A stretch of 45,029 bases of DNA from Caldisericia bacterium (lineage in GTDB: Bacteria; Caldisericota; Caldisericia; JAAYUI01). The number at the start of each line of letters is the position of its first letter. Position 1 is the stretch's first letter. The stretch covers positions 163,635-208,663 of the forward strand of contig JAGNLA010000002.1 in NCBI GenBank assembly GCA_017999835.1. The letters run 5' to 3'. Shown in pieces: positions 11,903 through 16,325 of this stretch. A program made the translations under genes and the position numbers. The notes below the pieces were generated by a model. It did not search any database and was not told the origin of the DNA. It saw only the letters and a list, made by a program, of their open reading frames with translations.

Positions 11903-12964
11903 TTGGCTAAGATTTTGGTGATTAACCCAGGATCGACCTCGACAAAGGTCGCCCTGTTTGAAGATGAAAATAAGATAGCAGAAGAAAACATCATCCATGA
12001 CAGTGCAAAACTGTCTTCTTTTGCCAAAACAGCTGATCAGGCACCATACAGACACGACGCAATCATGGAGTTCATGACCAAGCACGGCTGGAAAGAAACT
12101 GATTTGAACTGTGTAGTTGGCAGGGGCGGACCGATAAGGCCAATTCCGGCTGGCACATATAAAGTCAATGAAAAGTTACTCACCGACCTCATCGAGGCAA
12201 AACGTGCAGACCATCCAAGCAACCTTGGTGGCGTACTTGCAAACTCGTTTGCCCAAAAAAACAACATCCCGGCTTTCATCGTCGATCCGGTCTCGGTAGA
12301 CGAATTGCCGGATATGGCAAGAATTGCCGGCATGGTTGAGTGCGAGAGGATATCTCTCGGACATGCACTCAACATCCGCGCCGTCTCCCGTAAAGCTGCT
12401 GAACAGATGAACAAAAAAATCGAAGACTGCAACTTTGTCGTCGCCCACATGGGCGGAGGCATCTCGGTTTCACCTGTTCTGGGTGGCAAGATTGTCGACA
12501 CCTACGACTCACTCGAGGGTGGGCCAATAACCCCGGAGCGTTCAGGCGGACTGCCGCTTGCCAGCCTCATCGAGCTGTGTTTTTCTGGCAAATACACCGA
12601 AGACGACATCAAGATAATGACCACAAAAAAAGGCGGACTGACTGCGTACCTATCAACAAACGATGTCAGGGACGTGCTTGCCCGCATGGAACAAGGTGAT
12701 AAAAAAGCTGAACTGGTCTTTGAGGCAATGGTTTCACAGATTGCCCAGGAGATCGGTGAGGCTTCAGCCGCGCTCAAGGGCAAGGTTGACCGCATAGTTC
12801 TAACCGGTTCAATCGCCTATTCCCCTGTTGTTACAGGAAAACTTGAAGCCATGACCAAATGGATCGCCCCATCAGTAATTTTTGGCGGACAGATGGAAAT
12901 GGAAGCTCTGGCTCTGGGAGGACTTCGAGTCCTTCGAGGCCAAGAGCAGGCAAAGGAGTATTGA
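11903..12964 (+). CDS. buk: Butyrate kinase
   Basis: Converts butyryl phosphate and ADP to butyrate and ATP, the energy-yielding last step of butyrate fermentation; branched-chain relatives also exist. The ASKHA-fold signatures are visible: the N-terminal phosphate loop ILVINPGSTSTKVALFE, RGGPIRPIPAGTY, the VVAHMGGGISVSPV motif, and the C-terminal DRIVLTGSIAYSP. Length (about 353) is normal. The TTG at 11903 is preferred because AAGAGG sits five bases upstream and the protein then begins like known Buk proteins; the in-frame ATG at 11888 has no ribosome site. It forms an operon with the DUF2268-like gene and ptb. Substrate breadth (butyrate against isobutyrate) cannot be read from sequence. 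Confidence 0.92.
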   Translation: MAKILVINPGSTSTKVALFEDENKIAEENIIHDSAKLSSFAKTADQAPYRHDAIMEFMTKHGWKETDLNCVVGRGGPIRPIPAGTYKVNEKLLTDLIEAKRADHPSNLGGVLANSFAQKNNIPAFIVDPVSVDELPDMARIAGMVECERISLGHALNIRAVSRKAAEQMNKKIEDCNFVVAHMGGGISVSPVLGGKIVDTYDSLEGGPITPERSGGLPLASLIELCFSGKYTEDDIKIMTTKKGGLTAYLSTNDVRDVLARMEQGDKKAELVFEAMVSQIAQEIGEASAALKGKVDRIVLTGSIAYSPVVTGKLEAMTKWIAPSVIFGGQMEMEALALGGLRVLRGQEQAKEY

Positions 12965-13840: not shown

Positions 13841-13856
13841 TACAAGGATGGGAAAT

Positions 13857-14783
13857 ATGATTAAGAATTTTGACGAACTAATTGCTACAGCTCAAACCAA
13901 AGGCAAGATGACACTTGTGGCCGCGGCCGCAGAGGATATAGTTGTTCTCGACGCCATCAAGATGGCATGTGAGAAAAATCTCGTCACTCCGATTCTCGTT
14001 GGCGATGAAACTGCAATCAAGAAAATCTGTGCCGAAAATAACATTACTGAAATCAACAACTGGCCTATCATAAACGAACCGAACAAACAAAAAGCAGCAG
14101 AAAAGGCAATTGAAGTCATCAGGGAAGGTAAAGCAGAAATCCTGATGAAGGGTCTTGTCGGCACACCGATCCTCCTGAAGGCGGTTCTTGACAAGGAAAA
14201 AGGCCTCAAGAGAACGGCAAAAACCCTCTCCCACGTTGGACTCATCGGGACATCGACATACCCCAAACTCATCCTCCTCACAGATGGCGGCATGGTTCCT
14301 GCACCAACATTGGCTGAAAAAATCGACATTATCAACAATGCTCTAGTGGTTGCCAGAGCAATGGGTGTCAACCCGATCAAGGTTGCCTGTGTTTCATCGC
14401 TTGAAACCGTCAGCGACAAAGTTGTTTCGACAATGGATGGGGCAATTCTTGCAAAGATGGGCGACAGAAAACAGTTTGGCAAAGACGTCATCATAGACGG
14501 ACCACTTGCCCTGGACAACGCTATCAGCGCTGAAGCGGCCCATCACAAAGGTATTGACTCACCTGTGTCAGGCGATCCTGACATCCTCCTGATGCCAAAC
14601 GTTGAATCAGGAAACATTTTCTACAAAACATTAGTGTATCTTGGCGATTGCAAAGCTGAGACCGCCGGCCTTGTTATTGGCGCAGGCGTCCCGGTCATCG
14701 TGCCTTCCAGAACCGATACGGCTGAAAGCAAGATGAACGCAATAGCCATTTCAGTATTGATCGCAAATCTCGCAAAGAAATAG
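13857..14783 (+). CDS. ptb: Phosphate butyryltransferase
   Basis: Converts butyryl-CoA and phosphate to butyryl phosphate, feeding butyrate kinase encoded two genes upstream. Family features include LVAAAAEDIVVLDAI near the N-terminus, ILMKGLVGTPILLKAVL, SHVGLIGTSTYPKLILLTD, and the C-terminal LVIGAGVPVIVPSRTDTAES typical of the PTA/PTB fold. The length (about 308) matches the family. The frame is open further upstream, inside the previous gene, but the ATG at 13857 (MIKNFDELIA) has AGGATGGG upstream and aligns with normal Ptb N-termini. The order buk, DUF2268-like, ptb differs from the usual ptb-buk. Confidence 0.92.
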   Translation: MIKNFDELIATAQTKGKMTLVAAAAEDIVVLDAIKMACEKNLVTPILVGDETAIKKICAENNITEINNWPIINEPNKQKAAEKAIEVIREGKAEILMKGLVGTPILLKAVLDKEKGLKRTAKTLSHVGLIGTSTYPKLILLTDGGMVPAPTLAEKIDIINNALVVARAMGVNPIKVACVSSLETVSDKVVSTMDGAILAKMGDRKQFGKDVIIDGPLALDNAISAEAAHHKGIDSPVSGDPDILLMPNVESGNIFYKTLVYLGDCKAETAGLVIGAGVPVIVPSRTDTAESKMNAIAISVLIANLAKK

Positions 14784-14902
14784 CACTTTATTGTTCAACA
14801 TTTGTAAATAATTCACAGCGCACCTTGACAATCTGGCTCTCGTTTTCATGACCCGGATCCATTTTCTTGGCCGGGCCGACTTTATATCTCCTACTTAAAA
14901 AA

Positions 14903-14923: not shown

Positions 14924-14957
14924 GCGCTTATCGCAGGAAGCGCACAAGAACCTGCGA
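14924..14957 (+). promoter_or_regulatory. Predicted H-type pseudoknot in the gdhA 5' leader
   Basis: Stem 1: GCGCTT (14924-14929) pairs with AAGCGC (14938-14943). Stem 2: TCGCAGG (14931-14937), lying in the loop of stem 1, pairs with CCTGCGA (14951-14957). All 13 pairs are Watson-Crick. Loop 1 is a single A, there is no base between the stems, and loop 3 is ACAAGAA, which is A-rich. This is standard geometry for a compact H-type pseudoknot. It ends 13 bases before the AAGGAG site of gdhA, so it could control ribosome access, as in pseudoknot riboswitches. I do not recognise it as a known riboswitch class. Confidence 0.55.
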
Positions 14958-14981
14958 AAAATTAATATAAGGAGATGAATT

Positions 14982-16325
<1,344 letters not shown>

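Follow-up and report, generated by a model that had tools for sequence, protein, structure and literature searches.

The gdhA leader and its neighbours

The window, by which we mean the whole analysed stretch of 45,029 nucleotides from a Caldisericia bacterium, contains an H-type pseudoknot in the leader of gdhA, downstream of buk and ptb (Table 1). The initial annotation had already named the downstream gene as gdhA, and this assignment agrees with a match of 665 bits to the NCBIfam family of NADP-specific glutamate dehydrogenase. The ATG codon of gdhA is located at 14982, leaving 24 nt between the knot and the start codon. The gap between the knot and the Shine-Dalgarno sequence consists of 11 unpaired bases, not of 13 as first counted. 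A 140-nt spacer lies between ptb and the knot. No sigma-70-like promoter was found in this spacer, and no terminator was found after the knot in the window leader.

The gdhA frame of the window is interrupted by a TAA at codon 50 (15129-15131), and the listing of open reading frames puts the gene start at TTG 15159. The four sister-genus proteins described below read glutamate at this codon in uninterrupted frames. Since the rest of the window frame is open, the TAA reflects either a nonsense mutation that arose recently or an error in the assembly or the reads. The window knot is also more perfect than its sister-genus copies, a point against long-standing decay.

In the minimum-energy fold of the long leader, an anti-Shine-Dalgarno stretch, ATCTCCT (14887-14893), pairs with AGGAGAT (14970-14976). 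This fold is no better than those of shuffled sequences (z 0.18), and the ATCTCCT stretch is missing in the sister genus.

Table 1. Features of the buk-ptb-gdhA region, in coordinates of the window.
Feature	Position	Strand	Remarks
buk, butyrate kinase	11903..12964	+	before ptb in both genera
ptb, phosphate butyryltransferase-like	13848..14783	+	adjoins gdhA upstream in both genera
H-type pseudoknot	14924..14957	+	from sequence; four sister-genus genomes have a knot of this geometry at the orthologous site
Stem 1, GCGCTT with AAGCGC	14924..14929 with 14938..14943	+	6 bp, all Watson-Crick
L1, A	14930	+	1 nt
Stem 2, TCGCAGG with CCTGCGA	14931..14937 with 14951..14957	+	7 bp, all Watson-Crick
L3, ACAAGAA	14944..14950	+	7 nt
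A/U-rich linker AAAATTAATAT, knot to Shine-Dalgarno	14958..14968	+	9 nt in the sister genus
Shine-Dalgarno AAGGAGA of gdhA	14969..14975	+	conserved in the intergenic alignment with the sister genus
gdhA, NADP-specific glutamate dehydrogenase	14982..16325	+	448 codons including stop; interrupted by in-frame TAA

Structure and rarity of the pseudoknot

The knot reads GCGCTT-A-TCGCAGG-AAGCGC-ACAAGAA-CCTGCGA in the window. Its two stems interleave with a junction of 0 nt, and its loops are sterically feasible for an H-type pseudoknot. The geometry of two perfect stems of 6 and 7 bp with loops of 1, 0 and 7 nt, as it was originally described, is thus present exactly. The knot would be strand-specific, because on the opposite strand the one-base and seven-base loops are swapped, which is sterically poor.

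The stacking energies of the two stems are -12.7 and -15.2 kcal/mol, whereas nested folding of the local 65 nt gives -10.3 kcal/mol at best. The penalty for forming a pseudoknot is near 10 kcal/mol in the Dirks-Pierce model. Since the stem energies exceed that of the nested fold even with this penalty, the knot is predicted to be the favoured local fold.

Knots with a stem score of at least 35 were expected at 0.039 per 45-kb strand, as estimated from 77 dinucleotide shuffles of the window. Two were observed on the + strand of the window, the gdhA-leader knot included; the second resembles a terminator hairpin paired by chance with an AT-rich partner. A background scan covered both strands of about 400 kb from both genera. 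Apart from the window copy, no knot scoring at least 34 was found directly before a start in these sequences. At a threshold of 27, several chance knots also precede starts.

Conservation in the sister genus

We sought gdhA in 101 genomes and in named contigs. The only close relatives found, with 78-79% protein identity, were in four genomes of one sister genus. All four carry a knot at the same gene, GCGCT-T-TGCAGGC-GGCGC-AAAAGAT-GCCTGCG, the 3' end of which is GTG in two of the four. L1 is 1 nt long, there is no junction base, and L3 is 7 nt long (9 nt in one genome). The knot lies 23 nt before the GTG start of gdhA. The stop codon of ptb is located only 16 nt upstream, and the sister-genus knot is therefore intercistronic.

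Local alignment of the intergenic regions between the genera starts where stem 1 starts, spans the knot and ends at the Shine-Dalgarno sequence; none of 500 shuffles reached its score. No comparable similarity between the genera was found in the 20 nt before the knot. Within the aligned part, the register of stem 2 is shifted by one base pair, stem 1 is one pair shorter, and two bases are missing between the 5' arms. Despite these differences, the two stems persist, as do the sizes of the loops. When the window copy was randomly mutated with similar numbers of changes, an equally strong knot resulted in about 0.4-2% of trials. A stem-by-stem version of this retention test was set aside, because in the sister genus the classes of loop size overlap and stem 1 does not stand apart.

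The initial annotation had proposed compensatory changes in both stems as the touchstone of the fold. Two-sided changes numbered zero among the stem-2 pairs counted, and none was seen by eye in stem 1, an outcome that formally speaks against the fold and has little power with five sequences, four of them near-identical (four distinct). The changes between sequences in stem 2 are C-G to U.G and G-C to G.U. Both stems are preserved through one-sided G-C to G.U changes, the shifted register of stem 2 and the indels in the loops. Since the comparison involves effectively two lineages, covariation can neither prove nor refute the fold, and what the sequences offer in its support is mainly the retained geometry. 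The fold is possible and improbable by chance, and its geometry and its distance to the start are conserved in two genera.

Distribution and known RNA families

A covariance model including stem 2 found the element once only in every one of the five genomes of the family, always at gdhA, with E-values of 1.7e-6 or better. Among the remaining 49 genomes of the phylum, the best match had an E-value of 0.015. The weak matches elsewhere in the phylum had no leader-like context in those that were read, and the knot was not found by this model in the other families represented among the 49 genomes. No pseudoknot was found upstream of glnA or of a second glutamate-dehydrogenase-like gene in the same genomes. 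The gdhA leaders of 80 named relatives and of other families of the class yielded scattered matches, mostly AT-rich, and no homologous knot.

A search of the 4227 Rfam families returned nothing credible at E <= 10, only two chance matches of unrelated families, and the relatives' knots gave no credible match at E <= 5. The knot is thus not assigned to a known RNA family. By their Rfam covariance models, it does not belong to the glutamine-II, SAM-II or guanidine-III riboswitches. The initial annotation had likewise matched it to none of preQ1-I, SAM-II and glutamine-II (downstream peptide), and the Rfam models of these classes gave no match at E <= 10. Two further candidates were rejected. An intrinsic terminator of ptb does not fit, because no T run follows the fold and the knot keeps its place with respect to the gdhA start. 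A type III antitoxin-like repeat does not fit, because the knot is single copy.

Other structured or conserved segments were noticed in the course of these searches. In four gdhA leaders of the sister family, a TATAAT box is closely followed by a small hairpin, some 30-70 nt ahead of gdhA, with stems CTGGG/CCCAG, CCGG/CCGG, CCGGA/TCCGG and CTCTGG/CCAGAG. The stem letters vary from species to species and the pairing is kept, and a conserved AAAAGGC tail follows before the Shine-Dalgarno sequence. This hairpin could be a separate leader element. Four Cloacimonadota loci share an almost identical block, TTTGACAAATAATAATAGGGTTCATTTTTACGCCAAATC, some 35-75 nt upstream of the gdhA start, which is a candidate for a promoter plus operator or for a leader element. 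In one genome, two copies of a 37-nt pseudoknot-like intergenic sequence, AGCCACAAYGAAATCGTGTGGCTTTGCCACCGATTTC, lie 262 nt apart (L124 9642 and 9904, G000:C26).

Because the geometry and the position of the knot are conserved in a second genus and no Rfam class accounts for it, the knot is likely, judging from sequence comparison, to be a cis-acting RNA element of gdhA. The proposal of a new cis-regulatory RNA is to this extent upheld; the accompanying suggestion that it senses a metabolite found no support.

Possible roles of the pseudoknot

The reading that we favour, with a probability of roughly 40%, is that of a lineage-restricted, cis-acting element between ptb and gdhA which acts at the mRNA level on the initiation of gdhA translation, at the edge of the 30S footprint and possibly via a protein. 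It is preferred because the Shine-Dalgarno sequence lies 9-11 nt outside the knot and because the layout matches that of the T4 gene 32 operator. The knot would occupy the upstream edge of the 30S footprint, from which the open A/U-rich linker would lead to the Shine-Dalgarno sequence. The knot alone could tune the docking of the 30S subunit on the gdhA mRNA. Alternatively, it could be a docking site for a regulatory protein, as is the gene 32 operator knot. In favour of this reading are the rarity of the knot, the geometry and the 23-24 nt spacing in four genomes, and the confinement of similarity to the knot and the Shine-Dalgarno sequence. The retention above that expected from random mutation, the wobble-tolerated stem changes, the restriction of the 2-nt insertion (one genome) to L3 and the single copy, always at gdhA, point in the same direction. 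Against it are the occurrence in two genera only, the lack of two-sided covariation and the stop at codon 50 of gdhA in the window genome.

A further point against it is that a bare knot 9-11 nt from the Shine-Dalgarno sequence may be too far away to hinder 30S association, because in a preQ1 leader a spacing of 4 nt already relieved the steric inhibition of this step (PMC9410914). In the same leader, 30S dissociation was elevated at all tested spacings of 1-6 nt (PMC9410914), which speaks for the favoured reading.

A role in mRNA processing or stability is somewhat unlikely. The knot would block exonucleases and set the 3' end of the buk-ptb transcript or a processed 5' end of gdhA, so that the members of the operon accumulate differently. 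The intercistronic place of the knot in the sister genus and the high stability expected of its GC-rich stems would suit such a role, as would the different small hairpin near the TATAAT box in the sister-family gdhA leaders. A simple hairpin would suffice for this purpose, however, and the strict geometry of the knot and its distance to the start are left unexplained.

A metabolite riboswitch of a new minimal class, in which the 5' arm of stem 1 switches to the ribosome-binding region, appears distinctly unlikely. Such a role would be consistent with the compact H-type geometry and with L3 being A-rich. Pairing of this arm with the region between the Shine-Dalgarno sequence and the start is possible in the sister genus and, weakly, in the window. 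This alternative helix is a suboptimal one of four pairs in the window and a GU-rich one of six pairs in the sister genus. It leaves room for a switching model, but its weakness in the window and its lack of homology between the genera weigh against a switch. The Shine-Dalgarno sequence lies outside the knot, and no expression platform was seen to overlap the knot. The knot is also confined to one gene in one family, is intercistronic in the sister genus, has no Rfam match and is missing at glnA and the second dehydrogenase gene. We give similarly little credence to an undescribed class of minimal, 34-nt regulatory pseudoknots from a poorly cultured phylum, in which the 5' arm of stem 1 would exchange the knot for a helix over the gdhA ribosome-binding region, the trigger being either GdhA itself or a metabolite from nitrogen metabolism or fermentation.

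A DNA operator is about as improbable. The same letters make inverted repeats of 6-8-6 and 7-13-7, two overlapping elements with centres about 10.5 bp apart, to which a transcription factor could bind, the RNA knot being a by-product. However, the sister-genus changes (U.G in stem 1; G.U in stem 2, in two genomes) are tolerated as wobble pairs in RNA but break the symmetry of the DNA, and the 2-nt insertion in L3 of one genome shifts the spacing of the repeats. In the sister genus, the site lies a mere 16 nt after ptb, with no promoter shown. Finally, a functionless chance fold, in a sequence kept for some other reason or through recent shared ancestry, would accord with the restriction to two genera and the lack of two-sided covariation, but is very unlikely in view of the rarity in shuffles, the limitation of conservation to the knot and the Shine-Dalgarno sequence, and the retention above the random-mutation expectation.

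If the knot does act on translation initiation as we favour, it would bear on a key enzyme of nitrogen assimilation, the gdhA product. A literature search found no gdhA pseudoknot, and neither Rfam nor the literature searched yielded an RNA element that controls a glutamate dehydrogenase gene. A 34-nt knot of conserved shape at a single gene in a poorly cultured lineage would offer a compact, testable model of how a small upstream structure could set translation without contacting the Shine-Dalgarno sequence.

Comparison with known systems

Like the gdhA knot, the preQ1 class I riboswitch is an H-type pseudoknot of roughly 34 nt that sits in a leader and has an A-rich L3. In preQ1-I, L1 contains a conserved U, UC or AC precedes the 3' strand of P1, and the translational examples hold Shine-Dalgarno bases in the knot (PMC11625349). 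The gdhA knot, in contrast, has a one-base L1, GG instead of UC or AC before the 3' strand of stem 1, and its Shine-Dalgarno sequence 11 nt away. With these differences and no Rfam match at E <= 10, it is not a member of the class. The glnA and Downstream-peptide (glutamine) riboswitches are similar in that they are leader RNAs tied to nitrogen metabolism, but their covariance models do not match the gdhA knot at E <= 10. Their distribution is cyanobacterial (PMC2864571).

The gdhA leader can also be set beside the T4/T2 gene 32 operator. The latter belongs to a phage gene for a single-strand-binding protein and has UUAAA/UAAA repeats over more than 40 nt, whereas the linker of the gdhA leader is 11 nt long and its gene product is not known to bind RNA. 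The operator knot, like the gdhA knot, has a short first loop, and the two are comparable in size. In both leaders, a knot upstream of the ribosome site is followed by a less structured, A/U-rich stretch with the Shine-Dalgarno sequence (PMC535899). In T4 gene 32, it is the knot that nucleates the binding of the repressor protein (PMC535899).
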